From Cyclobacteriaceae bacterium (GTDB taxonomy: Bacteria; Bacteroidota; Bacteroidia; Cytophagales; Cyclobacteriaceae): a stretch of DNA of 64,000 bases. This document shows positions 25,165-32,984 of the stretch, one piece after another. The notes below the pieces were generated by a model. The model did no database searches. It saw only the letters and a program-made list of their open reading frames with translations, and had not been told where the DNA came from. The stretch spans positions 310,001 to 374,000 of the forward strand of contig BPHC01000002.1 in the NCBI GenBank assembly GCA_026003355.1, read 5' to 3'. Made by a program: the position numbers and the translations under genes. Within the stretch, counting starts at the first letter, position 1; each line of letters starts with the position of its first letter.

Positions 25165-25752
25165 CTACCGGTGCCGTTCTTTCAAAATATGCTCTACCTC
25201 AGCAAGACCTTTGTTGCGGGCGGCAAGCAGTATCAGAAGGTGATATACCAGATCGGCTGCTTCATTTAAAAAGGCTTTGTCGTCAGCCTCTTTCGAGGCA
25301 ATAACCAGTTCAATGGCTTCTTCGCCTACTTTCTGGGCTATGCGGTTAATGCCCTGCCTGAAAAGCGAGGAGGTGTAAGACGCCTCCTTCGGATTGTCTC
25401 TTCGCTGAACAATAATTTCTTCCAGCTGGCTGAGCATGGGTTTGGTATTTTTTTCGCCAAAGCATGTATCGGTGCCCTTGTGGCAAACCGGTCCTGCAGG
25501 TCTTACTTTAATCAATATTGTATCCTTATCGCAATCGGTTTTCATATCGACCCATTCCAGAAAATTGCCCGAGGTTTCGCCTTTGGTCCATAGTCGTTTT
25601 TTTGACCGGCTGTAAAAGGTTACTATTTTTTCAGCACGTGTTTTGCGGTAGGCTTCTTCGTTCATGTAGCCCAGCATCAGTACGTTGCCGGTCTGAACAT
25701 CCTGAACAATGCAGGGCAGGAGGGTATCGGGGTTTTTGAAAGCTACATTCAT
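25165..25752 (-). CDS. hisIE: Bifunctional phosphoribosyl-AMP cyclohydrolase / phosphoribosyl-ATP pyrophosphatase
   Basis: 195 residues; histidine pathway steps 2 and 3. The N-terminal HisI domain shows [30 protein letters not shown] and [14 protein letters not shown] with the metal and Zn ligands. The C-terminal HisE domain shows [12 protein letters not shown] and [13 protein letters not shown]. The start overlaps the hisF stop by four bases. Last his gene of the operon. Confidence 0.97.
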
Positions 25753-26504
25753 AATCGAACGGGTATGTTATGCTGACTTAAAAATTTTTTTAATTCCGGG
25801 ATTTTTATTTTTCCGAAATGAAAAGTGCTGGCTGCGAGGGCGGCATCGGCCCGGCCCAGTACAAAAGCATCGAGAAAATGGCCAGGTACACCGGCACCGC
25901 CCGAAGCGATAACCGGTATATGCAACAGGGTATTCAACTTAAGAAGAGCATCAACGGCAAACCCCTGTTGTGTACCATCATGGTCCATGCTGGTAAACAG
26001 AATTTCACCGGCACCCAGTTCAGCGACCTGGCGCGCCCAGCTATAAAGCTTTTTGCCGGCAGGCCGGCTGCCTCCGTGGGTGTGTACTACCCAGGTGTTA
26101 TTTATTTTGCGGGCATCAATAGCTACCACCACGCACTGCGAGCCAAAGGCTTTTGCGAGCTCTTCAATAAGGCCTGGGTTTAGAACGGCAGCGGTATTAA
26201 TGGTTACTTTATCTGCGCCGGCTTCGAGCAGGGGGGCTACGTCATTTGCCGATTTAATTCCTCCGCCAACGGTAAACGGGATGTTAACCACATGGGCTAC
26301 CTCACGCACCCATTGTGCCATGGTTTTGCGATCTTCCTGCGAGGCCGATATATCGAGAAACACCAGCTCATCAGCTCCCTGTTCGGCATAGGTGGCGGCC
26401 ATTTCAACGGGGTCGCCGGCATCGCGCAGGTTAATGAAGTTGATGCCCTTTACGGTGCGGCCGTTTTTTACATCGAGGCAGGGTATGATGCGTTTGGTAA
26501 GCAT
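25749..26504 (-). CDS. hisF: Imidazole glycerol phosphate synthase subunit HisF
   Basis: 251 residues, TIM-barrel cyclase subunit that uses ammonia delivered by HisH. Begins [20 protein letters not shown], with catalytic Asp in CLDV and later [16 protein letters not shown] and [11 protein letters not shown] phosphate-binding loops. Full length. The start meets the hisA stop with a one-base overlap. Confidence 0.98.
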
Positions 26505-27226
26505 TACAACAGGTTTTTGTTTTTCAGCTCTGCAGGCGTTATTTTTTTTTCATACAGCGCCTTGCCAATAATTACGCCCTCCAGTTTAAGATAATTCAGC
26601 TCAGCTACATCTTCAACGCTGCTTATGCCTCCGCTGGCTATTATGCCCAGGTTCGGAAATTTTGTTTTAAGCTTTTTGTATAGTAAAAGGTTGGGCCCCT
26701 TGAGCATGCCATCCCTGCTAATGTCGGTGCAGGTTACGTGGCGCAACCGGCCGAACCGGGCAATAAGGTCGTACACCAATATACCCGAATCTTCCTGCCA
26801 GCCGGCAATTTGCACTTTATCGTGGTGTACATCTGCGCTGAGAATAAAATTATCGGCTCCGTAAGTATTCATCCATTCAATAAAGGTTTCGGGCTGCTGC
26901 ACAGCCAGGCTGCCTATGTTAATGTATTCAACCCCCAGGCCCATAAGGCGCTCAATTTCGGCTGTGGTTTTAACGCCTCCGCCAAAGTCCATTTTCAAAG
27001 CTGTACTTGCGGCTATACGTTCAATAACCTGCCAGTTTATCACCTTTCCGTGCCGGGCTCCGTCCAGATCGACCAGGTGCAGGTACTCAAAGCCTTCATC
27101 TTCAAATTGTCGGGCTATCTTAACGGGGTCTTCGCTATATATGGTTACTTTTCCATAATTGCCCTGTACCAGGCGTACACATTTGCCCTTTATTAAATCA
27201 ATAGCGGGAATAATTTTCATTTTCAT
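26504..27226 (-). CDS. hisA: HisA: ProFAR isomerase
   Basis: 240 residues, TIM barrel catalysing the ProFAR-to-PRFAR Amadori rearrangement. [17 protein letters not shown] at the N-terminus, [21 protein letters not shown] (second catalytic Asp) and [12 protein letters not shown] are seen. An ATG two codons later is an equally good start. Eight bases separate it from hisH. Confidence 0.98.
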
Positions 27227-27234
27227 CGCTACTG

Positions 27235-27849
27235 TTAAAACGATGTTAAAAAAAACTTCAAAATTTTTTCACCGGCCTTACCCGATTTTTCCGGATGAAA
27301 CTGCACGGCAAGAAAATTATCTTTTTGCATCATGGCGCTGAAGGGCTTTATGTATTCGCAAAATCCTGATGTATGGCTGTTTATGGGAATGTAATAACTG
27401 TGTACAAAATAAAAGTCATCGGTGTGTGCAAATTGTACCCTGTTTAGGTCATCGTTTTCCGGATGGCTATTACGCAGGTTGTATACTACTCTGTTCCAGC
27501 CCATGTGGGGCACTTTGTGTTGCGCATCGGCCTGAAATTTCTTTACCTCTTCGTTAAATATACCAATGCAGGGAGTATTGCCTTCTTCCGAATGGCGGCA
27601 AAGCAGTTGCATGCCCAGGCAAATACCCAGTACAGGCTGGCGAAGGCTCCGGATGAGCAAGTCTAATTTTTTTTCCCTAAGATGTTGCATGGTGGTGTGG
27701 GCCTGACCTACGCCCGGGAATATTACCCGGTCGGATCCGGCAATTTCTTCCGGGTTGTCGGTTACTACATATTCCGCCTGTAGCCTTTCGAGGGCAAAGG
27801 CTACCGACTGAATATTGCCGGCATTGTAACGGATAATGGCTGTTTTCAT
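27235..27849 (-). CDS. hisH: Imidazole glycerol phosphate synthase glutaminase subunit HisH
   Basis: 204 residues from the ATG at 27849; an in-frame extension to 27936 runs into hisB and lacks family similarity. Class I glutamine amidotransferase: catalytic Cys in LGICLGMQLL, catalytic His/Glu in VQFHPEKSG, plus MGWNRV. Supplies ammonia to HisF. Sixteen bases after hisB. Confidence 0.97.
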   Translation of the reverse strand: MKTAIIRYNAGNIQSVAFALERLQAEYVVTDNPEEIAGSDRVIFPGVGQAHTTMQHLREKKLDLLIRSLRQPVLGICLGMQLLCRHSEEGNTPCIGIFNEEVKKFQADAQHKVPHMGWNRVVYNLRNSHPENDDLNRVQFAHTDDFYFVHSYYIPINSHTSGFCEYIKPFSAMMQKDNFLAVQFHPEKSGKAGEKILKFFLTSF

Positions 27850-27865
27850 TATACCTGGTATTAAT

Positions 27866-28981
27866 TTACAAAACACCTTTGGTGCTGGGTAATTCGGTTC
27901 CTTCGCGCTTTGCAGCCTGGTGCAGGCACCGGGCAAAGGCCTTGAATATTGATTCTATTTTATGGTGTTCGTTTTCGCCAACGGCATGGATGTGCAGGGT
28001 GCAGCGGGCTGTGTCGGTAAACGATTTGAAGAAGTGGCTGAACATTTCGGTGGGCATGTCGCCAATTTTTTCGCGGGTAAAAGCCGCTTCCCATTTCAGC
28101 CACGGCCGTCCGCCCAGGTCCAGTGCAACGCTGGCCTGACAATCGTCCATGGGTAAAACAAAGGCGTAGCGGTTAATGCCGCGTTTGTTGCCCAAAGCAG
28201 TCGCAAACGCTTCGCCCAGCGCAAGGGCAGTATCTTCAATGGTATGGTGTTCGTCAACATGCAGGTCGCCCTGGGCTTCAATTTTTAAATCCATACTTCC
28301 ATGGCGGGCCAGCTGCTGGAGCATGTGGTCAAAAAAACCGATTCCGGTATGGATGTCGGCATTTCCACTACCATCCAGGTTTAGTTCGGCGGTTATCCGG
28401 GTTTCGAGGGTATGGCGCTGTATGCGGGCCGTGCGCGGTGGGTTTTTCAGCAATTCATATACTGCTTTCCAGCTACGGGTTATGAGGACGCAGGTTTTGT
28501 CAAGGTTTAGTTTGTGCACTTGTTCCCAAAGCGACTCGTCATTCAGTAACACCGCCCGGCAACCCAGGTTTTGCGCCAGTTTTACGTCGGTTAGCCGGTC
28601 GCCTATTACCCATGAATTTTTCAGGTCGTAGCCGGGCGAAAAATAGTGTTGCAACATGCCGGTGCCCGGCTTGCGGGTGGGCAGGTTTTGGTGAGCAAAC
28701 GAGCGGTCGATGTGTACTGCAGCAAAGTGAATGCCCTGTCCTTCCAGTGTTTGCATGAGTTTGTTATGGGCCGGCCAGAAGGTATGTTCCGGAAAGCGCT
28801 CGGTACCCAGTCCGTCCTGGTTGGTAACCATTACCAGCTCGTAGCTGGTTTCTTCCACCAGCTGACTGAGCCAGCGTAACATGCCGGGGTAAAATTCCAG
28901 TTTCTCCAGGCTGTCTATCTGTTCATCGGGTGGTTCGGTTATCAGGGTTCCGTCGCGGTCAATAAAGAGTAAGCGTTTCAT
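27866..28981 (-). CDS. hisB: Bifunctional histidinol-phosphatase / imidazoleglycerol-phosphate dehydratase
   Basis: 371 residues with both activities fused, as in E. coli. The HAD phosphatase domain starts [13 protein letters not shown] and continues with [14 protein letters not shown] and VIGDRLTDV. The IGPD domain starts near residue 180 with [31 protein letters not shown] and [13 protein letters not shown], which contain the His/Glu Mn-binding motifs. Two bases after hisC. Confidence 0.97.
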
Positions 28982-28983
28982 GT

Positions 28984-30027
28984 TTATGGTTTGAATTGTT
29001 GCAGGGCGCTGATAAGCTTTGTGTTTTCATTGGGCGTGCCAACGGTTATACGCAGGCAGTTGCGCCCATGCAGAACTGCCGAGCGGTCGCGTACAATAAT
29101 GCCGTTCTGCAACAGGTAGTTATAAATCTGGCGGGCATCTTTAAACCGCACCAGCAAAAAATTGGCTTGAGAGGGAAATACCTGTTCAACCACAGCCAGC
29201 GTTTGGAGTTGGTTGGCCAGTCGGTTGCGCTGATTAATAATTTCTTTTATCTGCCTGTTTACCTCATCGGTTTTGCGCAGGCGTTCGAGTGCCAGCGCCT
29301 GTGCGGCGTGGCTAATGTTGTACGGAGGCTTTATGTTGTTCAGCCATTTTATGAGATTTGCCCGGGCAAAGGCCAGCCCCAGGCGCAGACCGGCAAGTCC
29401 GTAGGCTTTTGAAAGCGTTTGCATAATCATGAGATTGGGCCAGTTGTCCAGTTCAGGAAGAAAGCCCTGATCATCCGAAAAGTCAATATAGGCTTCATCT
29501 ACCACCACCAGGCCGTTAAAGCGGGCAAGTATTTCACGAACCTGATTTTTGTCCAGCAGGTTGCCCGACGGGTTGTTGGGCGAGCACAGAAATATAATTT
29601 TTGTACGGGGCCCAACGGCTTTAAGTATATCCCGGGCTTCAAGATTAAAGCTGGAAGTGAGCGGCACTTTTATAATGCCGGCATGGTTTATTTGAGCGCT
29701 AACCTGGTACATGCCATAAGTGGGATCGGGAATAACAATCACATCCTGGCCAGGCTCGCACAAAAGGCGTATAATCAGGTCGATTACTTCATCGCTGCCA
29801 TTTCCGATAAAGATTTTTTCAGGATTTATATTTTTCAGGGCGCTGATTACACCTTTAAGCTCAGCCTGGTGCGGATCGGGGTAGCGGTGCCAGGCAGCAG
29901 GGTAGGGGTTTTCGTTGGCGTCCAGAAATACTTCGGCTTTCCCTCTGTACTCATCGCGTGCGGTGCTGTACGGAGTTATTTTAAGAAGGTGCGGCCTGAT
30001 TAATGACTCTATATTAAAAGTTGTCAT
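28984..30027 (-). CDS. hisC: Histidinol-phosphate aminotransferase
   Basis: 347 residues, PLP-dependent fold type [49 protein letters not shown] and [14 protein letters not shown], the last containing the Schiff-base Lys. C-terminal [15 protein letters not shown] is typical. Three bases after hisD. Confidence 0.97.
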
Positions 30028-30030
30028 GGG

Positions 30031-31308
30031 TTAAAAGGTTAATCGTACCGATATGGCTGTAGCGTGTGCCTCCAGTTGTTCGGCGCGCGCCATTTCCATT
30101 ACGGTTTCTCCCAAACGCATCAGACCTTGCTGGGTAATGTGCTGAAAGGTAATATACTTCATAAAGCTTTCGACCGATACGCCACCGTACAGCCTGGCAT
30201 AGCCGTTGGTAGGCAGGGTATGGTTGGTTCCTGAGGCGTAATCGCCTGCGGCTTCGGGCGAATAATTTCCCAGAAATACCGATCCGGCGTTTTTTATTTC
30301 TTCGGCCATTTGCGCAGCATTGCCCGTATTGATAATTAAATGCTCGGGTGCGTAGGTGTTGATGAAGGCAAGGGCATCAGCCGAACGGCTGAACACTATA
30401 GCCCGGCTGTTTTTAAGTGCTTGTTCGGCAATGCTTTTTCTGGGCAGGTTTTGCAGTTGTTTGTGCAGTTCGTTTATAACTGCCAGGGCCGTGTTTTCGG
30501 TATTGCAAACCAGTATTACCTGGCTGTCGGTTCCGTGCTCGGCCTGCGACAGCAGGTCGGCTGCCACAAACATAGGGTTAGCCTGTTCATCGGCCCATAC
30601 CAGCAGTTCGCTGGGGCCTGCGGGCAGATCGATGGCCAGGCCTTCGCGGGCCACCATCTCCTTGGCTTTGGTTACATATTGGTTACCGGGCCCGAAAATT
30701 TTCTGCACTGCCGGAATCGAAGGTGTGCCGTAAGCCATGGCACCTATGGCCTGTGCACCTCCTGCTTTAAATATGCGCCGCACCCCGGCATGGGAAGCTG
30801 CAAAGAGTATGGCCGGGTGAATACTGCCGTCTTTGGCGGGCGGGGTGCAGAGTACGGTTTCTGTACAGCCGGCTATGCGTGCGGGTATGGCCAGCATAAG
30901 CACTGTTGAAAACAGTGGGGCCGTTCCGCCGGGCACATAAATACCTACGCGTTCAAGGGGTACGGCTTTGCGCCAGCAGGTTACGCCGGGCTGTGTTTCG
31001 ATTTTGGTTACCGGCTGAAGCTGGCTTCGATGGAACTTTTCAACATTGGCCGAAGCCGTTTCGATGGCCTTTTTAAGCGCAGGCGGAATCAGGCCGGCGG
31101 CTGCCTGTATTTCTGGGATGGTTACCTCAAGGTTTTCGGTTTCTGCGCCGTCATACAGCCGGTTAAACTCTTTTAATGCTGCATCGCCACCCTGCTTTAC
31201 TCTTAGCAATATGTTTCGTACGGTGCCCTCGAGAAAGTCAAGTTCAAGTTGTGGCCGCGCGCATAGTTCAGGCCATTGAGAAGATTGAGGCTCGATAAAA
31301 ATGTTCAT
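30031..31308 (-). CDS. hisD: Histidinol dehydrogenase
   Basis: 425 residues from the ATG at 31308 (a TTG two codons earlier is possible). Oxidises histidinol to histidine in two NAD-dependent steps. Zn-site and signature blocks are present: PGGTAPLFSTVLMLAIPA, GGAQAIGAMAYG, FGPGNQYVTKAKE, DLPAGPSE, DLLSQAEHGTDSQV and NHTLPTNGYARLYGG. Full length and uninterrupted. Confidence 0.97.
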   Translation of the reverse strand: MNIFIEPQSSQWPELCARPQLELDFLEGTVRNILLRVKQGGDAALKEFNRLYDGAETENLEVTIPEIQAAAGLIPPALKKAIETASANVEKFHRSQLQPVTKIETQPGVTCWRKAVPLERVGIYVPGGTAPLFSTVLMLAIPARIAGCTETVLCTPPAKDGSIHPAILFAASHAGVRRIFKAGGAQAIGAMAYGTPSIPAVQKIFGPGNQYVTKAKEMVAREGLAIDLPAGPSELLVWADEQANPMFVAADLLSQAEHGTDSQVILVCNTENTALAVINELHKQLQNLPRKSIAEQALKNSRAIVFSRSADALAFINTYAPEHLIINTGNAAQMAEEIKNAGSVFLGNYSPEAAGDYASGTNHTLPTNGYARLYGGVSVESFMKYITFQHITQQGLMRLGETVMEMARAEQLEAHATAISVRLTF

Positions 31309-31319
31309 AGACAATTTCT

Positions 31320-32172
31320 TTACACAATCATTTTTTCAATGGGTATAACAAGAATACCCTGTGCGCCCAGTTTTTTCAGCTGCCCGATTTTTTCCCAAAA
31401 GTCGTCTTCATTTACAACAGAATGCAACGAACTCCATCCGGGCATGGCCAGCGGAAGCACGGTAGGGCTTTTCATGCCTGGTAAAATCCGGGTTATGGCC
31501 TCTATGGCATGGTTGGGGCAATTCAGCAGGATATACTTGCTTTGTTGTGCTTTTTGTACGGCTTCAAACCGGAATACCAGTTGTTCGAGCAAGTCCTTTT
31601 TTTGATCCGACAGGTTTTTGTGGGCAACCAGTACGGCTTCGGAATGTAATATGGTTTCTACCTCTTTCAGTCCGTTACTTAACAAGGTGCTTCCTGAACT
31701 TACCAGATCGCATATAGCATCGGCCAGACCAATACCCGGGGCAATTTCTACCGAGCCGCTTATTTCGTGAATACCGGCCGAGATGTTGTGTTGGAGCAGA
31801 AATTTTTTTACCAGGTTCGGGTACGATGTAGCTATGTTTTTTCCGTTAAGCCAGCTTATGCCCGTATAGTATTCGCTGCGGGGGTACTGCCACCGATAGC
31901 CGGCAACGCGAAAAACCCAGCCTTTTTACTATTTCGCCCGCCTTTTGCTTTTCCAGAAAGATATTCTCTCCCACAATGCCGGCATCGGCCACGCCATCTT
32001 CTACATACTGCGGGATGTCGTCATCTCTGAGAAACAGTAATTCCACCGGAAAATTTAAAGCCGTGGCTTTAAGCTGGTCTTTTCCGTTACTGAAAATCAG
32101 GCCGCTTTCCTTTAACAAATTCATGGAGCCTTCCTGCAGGCGTCCGGATTTCTGAATGGCCAGTCGCAACAT
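31320..32172 (-). CDS. hisG: ATP phosphoribosyltransferase HisG, frameshifted in this sequence
   Basis: First enzyme of histidine synthesis and the usual feedback target. Starts MLRLAIQKSGRLQEGS at 32172; the catalytic core includes DGVADAGIVGENIF. The frame closes early at 31846 because of the G5 run at 31880-31884. Removing one G restores VAVPRSEYYTG and continues to ILVIPIEKMIV with stop at 31320. The span is 853 bases, one more than a multiple of three, giving 283 residues, right for the long HisG form with the C-terminal regulatory domain. All other his genes are intact, so I favour a sequencing error over a true mutation. Confidence 0.9.
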
Positions 32173-32190: not shown

Positions 32191-32229
32191 ATAAAACAAA
32201 AAAGGCCTGCCGGTGCGTGGCAAGCCTTT
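32191..32229 (-). terminator. his attenuator terminator hairpin
   Basis: On the minus strand an 11-bp stem (AAAGGCTTGCC with GGCAGGCCTTT, one G-U) encloses a 7-base loop and is followed by a T-rich tract TTTGTTTTAT. The arms are at 32219-32229 and 32201-32211. It lies between the leader peptide stop and the hisG start, where an intrinsic attenuator should be. Confidence 0.85.
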
Positions 32230-32276
32230 TTCAGGTTTCTTTGTTTGGTTTGTCAAATCAAAAACCAGCCACGCAC
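32213..32276 (-). promoter_or_regulatory. his attenuator antiterminator pairing
   Basis: The minus-strand segment GTGCGTGGC (32268-32276) inside the leader peptide gene is perfectly complementary to GCCACGCAC (32213-32221), which forms the loop and part of the 5' arm of the terminator. The two structures are mutually exclusive. A ribosome stalled on the upstream His codons would leave the first segment free and permit readthrough; one at the leader stop would cover it and allow termination. Confidence 0.8.
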
Positions 32277-32330
32277 TGTTTGGTTTAACAGATGGTGGTG
32301 ATGATGGTTTATGATCTGGCAAAAATTCAT
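32253..32330 (-). CDS. hisL: his operon leader peptide with five consecutive His codons
   Basis: 25 residues: starts MNFCQIIN, then five His codons (CAT CAT CAC CAC CAT, 32292-32306), then LLNQTVRGWFLI and TGA at 32253-32255. The run of control codons, the overlap with an antiterminator arm and the terminator 24 bases beyond the stop make a classical ribosome-mediated attenuation leader. The ATG is 24 bases downstream of the stop of the DUF3592-like gene. No convincing promoter was resolved, so the transcript may start inside that upstream gene. Confidence 0.85.
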   Translation of the reverse strand: MNFCQIINHHHHHLLNQTVRGWFLI

Positions 32331-32354
32331 ACGGCAAATAAAAGCGAAAGCTGC

Positions 32355-32984
32355 TTACTTTCCAAAAGCTTTTTTAAGTTTTCTGCGTATAAAGCCAATG
32401 GTTAGTGAAACAGCTAACAGAAATGCGCCAATAATTACAAATCCTAAGCTTACTGAAAATTGTTCTCTGAAGCTGTCAATGGTGGCTTTTTCGGGGTCGG
32501 TTGCCGAAACCAGCATCACTACTTCATCATTCACCTCATAGTCAGGCGGATGACTGTAGTTGTTGCTGTAATAAGTAAACAGCCTGCCGTTGTACCGGTA
32601 GGCAACCACAGGAGCCACTGCCGGGCCGGCACTGTTTTCGGGCACCAATTCAATAACCTTGCCCTTTAGGCGAATGGCCTGTTGGGCAAATTGCTGTGCC
32701 GAGTACCAGAAATAGGCAGCCCCTGCCAGGCACAACAGGGCCATCATTCCGATAATGATTGAAGCGGAGCGCAGCACCAGTATCGCACAGCCAGCCAGGC
32801 CGGCAACAGACTGCAGGGGGCGAGCAGCGGAGGTTGTAATTTCATCTTCCAGCACGCTGATAAGCTTTTCTGCGTCGGCAGTGCTGATGGTAAATTGCTG
32901 TCGGAGGTAGGTCACGGCCTGTTGCCGCTTTCCGGCAGCCAGCAGGCGGATAAGTTGAAGTTTAAGGTCTGATGGGATATTCAC
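32355..32984 (-). CDS. DUF3592-like membrane protein
   Basis: 209 residues. An N-terminal helical segment (about 1-50) resembles a small ribosomal-L7/L12-like helical fold (LIRLLAAGKRQQAVTYLRQQF). Two membrane helices follow near 73-95 and 175-195, flanking an extracytoplasmic beta domain with GKVIELVPEN, VVAYRYNGRLFTYYSN and VNDEVVMLVSATDPEKATID, the pattern of DUF3592. The C-terminus is basic (IRRKLKKAFGK). Function unknown. Lies just upstream of the his leader. Confidence 0.75.
   Translation of the reverse strand: MNIPSDLKLQLIRLLAAGKRQQAVTYLRQQFTISTADAEKLISVLEDEITTSAARPLQSVAGLAGCAILVLRSASIIIGMMALLCLAGAAYFWYSAQQFAQQAIRLKGKVIELVPENSAGPAVAPVVAYRYNGRLFTYYSNNYSHPPDYEVNDEVVMLVSATDPEKATIDSFREQFSVSLGFVIIGAFLLAVSLTIGFIRRKLKKAFGK

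Follow-up and report, generated by a model that had tools for sequence, protein, structure and literature searches.

The window analysed here, a stretch of 64,000 nucleotides from a Cyclobacteriaceae bacterium (contig BPHC01000002.1, forward-strand positions 310,001 to 374,000), carries a his operon on its minus strand; all coordinates below are positions in this window. The first gene, hisG (31320..32172, ATG at 32172), is present in the assembly as two overlapping frames, with matches to TIGR00070 at 31873-32169 and 31623-31883 and the HisG C-terminal domain found in 31323-31685; the frameshift near 31873-31883 is either an assembly error or real. It is followed on the same strand by hisD, hisC, hisB, hisH, hisA, hisF, and hisIE (25165..31314), every one of which scores above its NCBIfam curated cut-off. 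A gene of the nitroreductase family (PF00881, 24441-25130) lies close behind hisIE and may be a member of the operon. The gene upstream of hisG (32355-32984, stop codon at 32357-32355) is oriented like the his operon, and its product has a sub-threshold match to DUF3592 (21.3 bits against a cut-off of 25.3).

Ahead of hisG, at 32330-32198 on the minus strand, lie a 25-codon ORF, an antiterminator, and an intrinsic terminator. The ORF (MNFCQIINHHHHHLLNQTVRGWFLI, 32253..32330) runs from an ATG at 32330-32328 to a TGA stop at 32255-32253 and contains five consecutive His codons (32292..32306), the putative stall site. Strand a of the antiterminator (GTGCGTGGC, 32268..32276) is located within the ORF, 15 nt past the last His codon, and is complementary to strand b (GCCACGCAC, 32213..32221), which is common to the 5' arm and loop of the terminator. 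The terminator and its T-tract (32198..32231) comprise arms at 32231-32219 and 32211-32199, a loop at 32218-32212, and a T-tract ending at about 32198. A possible protector (1:2) hairpin (32249..32323) covers most of the leader ORF, with the His-codon region paired to strand a. These elements are far removed from random expectation: the fold of the terminator segment reaches -20.4 kcal/mol (z -4.60), the whole leader fold has a z of -5.95, and the a-b duplex has a z of -5.1, with none of 200 shuffles performing as well in each case. A preliminary description of this DNA had proposed a leader of 25 codons, five of them consecutive His codons, together with a 9-bp antiterminator pairing and a terminator, in the right order and spacing ahead of hisG, the mutually exclusive pairs overlapping and the leader starting less than 25 bases past the upstream stop. 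The minus-strand sequence bears this out, the distance from stop to ATG being 24 nt. The 11-bp terminator with T-tract described at that stage stands as a feature, and its length was conservative, as a terminator-finding tool counts 15 pairs (6 G-C) around a loop of 7. A distant-mode search of a plasmid collection returned no match to the leader.

HisG matches were found in 93 of 98 genomes of the family, 43 of 59 of the order, 56 of 119 of the class, and 70 of 80 of the phylum. Upstream regions were taken from 71 family genomes (31 loci and 40 regions), 29 further loci from the order search, 30 from the class search, and 80 named records, giving 210 hisG upstream regions of which 203 are distinct; they represent the best HisG matches first rather than a random sample, with 22 matching family genomes left out. 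A leader was scored as His-rich if an ATG-initiated ORF contained at least three His within nine codons. Such a leader is present in 160 of the 203 distinct regions and absent from 43, compared to 67 hits in 2030 dinucleotide shuffles, counts in which related sequences are not independent of one another. Conservation of the His run in relatives, a test set beforehand, is thus evident. An automatic classifier divided the 160 leaders into 90 of terminator type and 70 others, and the reassignment of one leader (L034) by eye yields 89 and 71; this leader was already absent from the 89 used in the tests below. Leaders combining a His-rich ORF with a terminator before hisG occur in Cyclobacteriaceae, Chitinophaga, Bacteroidales, and genomes outside the class of the window. 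The 70 matching genomes of the phylum search yielded 26 new loci for inspection, with the same His criterion applied and ATG, GTG, or TTG starts allowed; a His-rich leader occurs in 21 (doubtfully in one, L264) and is missing from five. Outside the class of the window, a leader is found in 16 of 21 new loci, the other five of the 26 lying within the class.

This distribution bears on whether the hairpin is merely the terminator of the upstream gene, with a short His ORF lying beside it incidentally. In favor of such an explanation, the leader begins 24 nt after the upstream stop codon, and a strong terminator at this place would end the upstream transcript as well. However, a His leader with a terminator recurs ahead of hisG in many lineages, the antiterminator pairs preferentially with its own partner, and promoter boxes adjoin the leader (both described below), and we consider this explanation highly improbable.

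The antiterminator pairing is maintained well beyond the window. Across the 89 terminator-type leaders the pairing has a mean z of -2.6, and 61 of the 89 rank at or below 0.05 against shuffled sequences. Because alignment A2 placed strand a wrongly in at least four short rows (L003, L004, L019, and L026) and lost the register at loop gaps, the pairing was tested by permuting partners: summed over all leaders, pairing with the own terminator amounts to -1280 kcal/mol, compared to -941 (sd 25) with permuted partners, and none of 5000 permutations reached the observed value. The same result, none of 5000, was obtained within the 23 leaders from the window's own family. The expectation that complementarity would be kept in relatives is therefore upheld, and it is kept in different letters, with pairs of the TGCATGGCAGG/CTTGCCATG, GGTAAGC/GCTTACC, and CTCAGGCG/CGTCTGAG types. 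When strand b was anchored in one register (63 leaders), own partners formed 7.16 and swapped partners 6.72 of 9 pairs, a weak result. Strand a begins a median of 11 nt past the last His codon of the run in the 89 leaders, and in 83 of them this start falls inside the ORF or its stop codon. The protector hairpin was also considered as a general feature and was rejected: it is present in the window, but over the 89 leaders its mean z is -0.39 and only 12 rank at or below 0.05.

The behavior of the leader was modelled by folding the RNA up to the end of strand b, with a ribosome of fixed edges placed on the codon that opens the His run, at the stop codon, or absent, and with strand b taken as sequestered when at least seven of its bases were paired upstream. 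In this model strand b is sequestered in 84 of 89 leaders when the ribosome is stalled at His, in 42 without a ribosome, and in 8 when the ribosome occupies the stop codon. The untranslated state is therefore not uniformly off, and it differs between leaders, as seen from the window, where strand b has 11 paired bases in the stalled state and none in the untranslated and at-stop states, and from a leader of the same genus (L029), for which the corresponding counts are 14, 14, and 6. In the entirely free window leader, strand a is taken up by pairing with the His-codon region and strand b stays largely open, so that the untranslated window leader should terminate according to the model. With strand a free and the 3' arm of the terminator not yet made, the antiterminator is the minimum-energy fold (z -4.33). 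In the complete window leader, the terminator is the minimum-energy fold even with strand a free; since it is the more stable structure once its 3' arm exists, the choice must fall during transcription, as a kinetic switch.

Comparable leaders were identified ahead of other amino acid operons. In the window's own genome, a Trp leader (WWW; MLFATNNMAWWWHIQETEL) precedes a strong terminator-like hairpin upstream of trpE (L224), with an antiterminator z of -3.3, and a Phe-rich leader (MHVGNKWFYFYYFFFHPRPGWNEEALCC) precedes a strong terminator-like hairpin upstream of pheA (L247); from their sequences these are probably Trp and Phe attenuators. Of 30 trpE-family loci, the 20 full-length matches (L212-L231) were inspected, and 16 of the 20 carry a WW or WCW leader with a terminator-like hairpin; the antiterminators of these 16 have a mean z of -2.09, with several near zero. 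Inspection by eye of 16 of 17 pheA-family loci (L258 omitted) found a Phe-rich leader with a terminator-like hairpin in nine, the window's own genome included. Searches of 20 trp and phe loci against Rfam at the gathering score yielded no match.

These leaders, together with the searches of the window, are informative about the possibility that a metabolite- or protein-binding riboswitch or a T-box controls the operon and that the peptide is never translated. A terminator and antiterminator within a structured 5' element would by themselves look alike, and the available parts of a transcriptome study list a 5' element of Flavobacterium hisG among original elements of unknown mechanism (PMC9723704). 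Nevertheless, no Rfam family matches anywhere within the window at gathering score, the part of the his leader that is conserved is the His codon run in the ORF, and the trpE and pheA leaders carry Trp and Phe codons in turn; we regard control of this kind as very unlikely.

Promoter-like boxes adjoin the leader. A -7-like box (TTTATTTG, 32335..32342) with one mismatch to TAnnTTTG ends 4 nt before the leader ATG, and a -33-like TTTG (32363..32366) is located 20 nt from it within the last codons of the upstream gene, both on the minus strand. In Flavobacterium psychrophilum, the primary -7 box TAnnTTTG is placed at -12 to -5 in the available parts of the transcriptome report (PMC9723704). By this promoter geometry, the predicted transcript start in the window is 32330, the A of the leader ATG. 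To extend the prediction to relatives, candidate boxes had to end in TTG and agree with two or more of the three remaining fixed letters, and the first ATG in the leader frame was taken as the start codon. A predicted 5' UTR of 0-9 nt is found for 94 of 160 leaders but for only 15 of 243 controls, which were genes with unoccupied space upstream (Fisher p 4e-32), and by automatic class for 40 of 90 terminator-type leaders and 54 of 70 others. Among the 94 near-leaderless leaders, 68 have a TTG 18-20 nt upstream of the box, whereas no other spacing between 10 and 31 accounts for more than four. The predicted start falls outside 0-9 nt in the remaining 66 of 160 leaders, 17 of which have no box within 60 nt. 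A box giving 0-10 nt is present in 10 of the 16 trp leaders and is absent from those of the window's own genome and of its genus relative. The leader start codon is thus predicted to sit at or near the RNA 5' end. This would be unusual for these bacteria, as leaderless messages make up only 5.5% of the F. psychrophilum mRNAs examined (PMC9723704) and 5' UTRs shorter than 10 nt only about 3.7% in Bacteroides thetaiotaomicron (PMC7366714), going by the available parts of both sources.

An ordinary leadered attenuator is a competing account of the start site only, and one compatible with attenuation: transcription would start further upstream and the TTTATTTG box by the ATG would be a chance match. 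The -7 box of the window is imperfect, and among the 90 leaders classed automatically as terminator-type, 24 have their best box ending 14-29 nt ahead of the ATG, 16 have it 30-59 nt ahead, and 10 lack one. The excess of short predicted UTRs over the control genes argues against this account, as does the clustering of -33 boxes at a spacing into which the 20 nt of the window falls, and we judge it unlikely, albeit with an appreciable chance of being correct.

We conclude that the feature is, with high probability, a ribosome-mediated transcription attenuator of the his operon. The support consists of the sequence itself, the complementarity of its strands, conservation, own-partner pairing, and modelled folding logic, from which we infer where the transcript begins and where its 3' end lies, that the ORF is translated, and that the ribosome stalls. 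RNA polymerase would start at or next to the leader ATG, allowing a ribosome to load on the 5' end immediately. With charged tRNA-His plentiful, the ribosome would reach the stop codon and cover strand a, leaving strand b free; the terminator would then form and transcription would end at about 32198, giving an RNA of about 130 nt. Under His shortage, the ribosome would stall on the five His codons with strand a exposed, and the free strand a would pair with strand b before the 3' arm of the terminator is made, permitting the polymerase to enter hisG.

A second class of 71 His-rich leaders has no recognised terminator. Many of these leaders end in HHSS-stop, and many bear a hairpin at the stop codon, e.g., ATTCCTCC-GGAGGAAT. 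The fold around the stop has a mean z of -1.64 in the 71 terminator-less leaders compared to -0.05 in the 89 of terminator type. The stems vary (ATTCCTC/GAGGAAT, TGTGC/GCACA, ATTGCT/AGCAAT, TGGCTCTCT/AGAGAGCCA), and a good stem at the stop is lacking in 15 of the 71. Five members (L114, L127, L156, L188, and L200) carry terminator-like hairpins and are probably missed terminator-type leaders; they were excluded from the composition test only and are retained in the counts of 71 and 70. In that test, the mean excess of C over G past the leader is 0.079 in terminator-less leaders (n 64), against 0.016 in terminator-type leaders (n 89; p 6e-10) and 0.020 in regions with no leader (n 42; p 5e-6). 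Rho was found in 14 of 14 genomes tested, in which both classes are represented. As RNAalifold detected no consensus over 37 terminator-less leaders, we claim no common fold for their 3' part. In several of them (L027, L059, L060, L072, and others), inspection by eye also reveals a ATATCGCCC stretch about 10-13 nt past the stop hairpin; in leaders of this kind the stretch is followed by a second hairpin (GGCTGT/ACAGCC types) and by a TATATTGCATACATG-like sequence at the start of hisG that might be an internal promoter.

On a tree of 161 HisG proteins, from which the window's split HisG and the 700-base regions were excluded, four leader labels are clustered (33 changes versus 72.8 when shuffled). 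The backbone of this tree is unresolved, and no single origin is therefore claimed for the terminator-less class. One branch from the phylum search (f89) contributes seven loci with GTG-start His-rich leaders and no strong terminator hairpin; a perfect TAnnTTTG lies 4 nt before the GTG in four of them, two of which are near-identical. A G-poor stretch ahead of hisG can be seen by eye in five f89 loci (L259, L270, L272, L273, and L275), and four of these five carry the perfect TAnnTTTG, ending 4 nt before the GTG.

The sequence features of the terminator-less leaders suggest that they perhaps operate by Rho-dependent attenuation, with the run of CAY codons as part of a rut site. Stalling on His would keep the Rho loading site masked by the ribosome, and the site would become exposed on release of a ribosome at the stop codon, over which a hairpin often forms; the role of the stop hairpin itself falls outside this proposal. 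The class would then be a natural experiment in which the intrinsic terminator has been replaced by another stop signal.

The tightness of transcription-translation coupling in Bacteroidota is an open question. An attenuator spread across much of the phylum, with its strands matched genome by genome, implies that the ribosome must track the polymerase closely at these loci, and a start codon at the RNA 5' end would explain how a ribosome could load in time. The window's own genome appears to use the attenuator device for his, trp, and phe. While the attenuator mechanism is very likely, it is as such of a known kind, and what is new lies in the predicted near-leaderless start and in the terminator-less sister class. 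The joint proposition, that Bacteroidota attenuators are built on leaderless leader peptides and that a terminator-less his class carries a C-rich, G-poor Rho loading site, is advanced tentatively, as possible rather than probable. If it is true, a leaderless leader peptide allows a first ribosome to engage with no need for a Shine-Dalgarno sequence and makes the protector hairpin dispensable, and the Rho site is formed by the His codon run, C-rich and G-poor, together with the stretch beyond it. Shine-Dalgarno sequences are absent from Bacteroidota, as is described for Flavobacterium in the available parts of the transcriptome study (PMC9723704). Neither the near-leaderless geometry nor a terminator-less his leader in Bacteroidota was found in a search of titles and abstract openings, a scope outside of which most subscription journals fall.

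Attenuators in Bacteroidota are not new. A comparative study by Vitreschak and others from 2004 reportedly predicted them in Bacteroidetes/Chlorobi. The preliminary description had presented attenuation as noteworthy in this phylum on the grounds that it is mainly known from gamma-proteobacteria, an emphasis that has to be toned down given the prior Bacteroid-trp motif and Flavobacterium clues. Bacteroid-trp (Rfam RF01692), reported as a Bacteroidete trp leader in the parts of that work available (Weinberg 2010, PMC2864571), is like the window element a leader peptide RNA of a Bacteroidetes amino acid operon; unlike it, Bacteroid-trp is concerned with Trp rather than His, and the window scores only 21.5 bits against its gathering score of 49. 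A weak match to Thr_leader (RF00506; 36.3 bits, E 1.8e-5 with 251 bases searched) extends over the whole window leader, as a shared attenuator shape would give; this match does not reach the gathering score of 55 and belongs to a Thr operon family, and no homology is claimed. None of the 10 Rfam matches up to E 10 is a his-leader family.

The available parts of the F. psychrophilum transcriptome study provide clues to leader-peptide attenuation in amino acid operons and describe a conserved 5' element ahead of hisG with no Rfam match (PMC9723704). This element resembles that of the window in being a structured hisG 5' region, in Flavobacteriaceae, from an organism where attenuation has been suggested for such operons, a likeness by description only, as the source gives in these parts no sequence, peptide, or start geometry. 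In B. thetaiotaomicron, sORFs reminiscent of attenuation leaders have been noted (PMC7366714, in part).

A further known counterpart of the window element is hisL of E. coli and Salmonella, in which tandem His codons and mutually exclusive antiterminator and terminator structures precede an operon with hisG first. The window has the same tandem His leader, exclusive antiterminator and terminator, and hisG-first operon. In contrast to hisL, its start codon is predicted to lie at the RNA 5' end by promoter boxes of the Bacteroidota type, and the protector hairpin is unconserved among its relatives. A survey of his genes that takes in this superphylum places attenuation upstream of hisG in the E. 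coli/Salmonella operon and, in the text available, names it only for S. enterica and E. coli (PMC8305728). Leaderless Cys-rich ORFs of mycobacteria are candidate attenuating elements (PMC4633059, in part), and a mycobacterial leaderless Cys ORF is credited with translation attenuation (Canestrari 2020, as cited in the available part of PMC13236596). As far as these sources extend, the mycobacterial ORFs and the window share a candidate attenuating leader ORF, placed at the 5' end of a leaderless mRNA in the former and predicted to be so in the latter. They differ in that the mycobacterial ORFs are Cys-rich and, where cited, linked to translation attenuation, while the target in the window is an intrinsic terminator.
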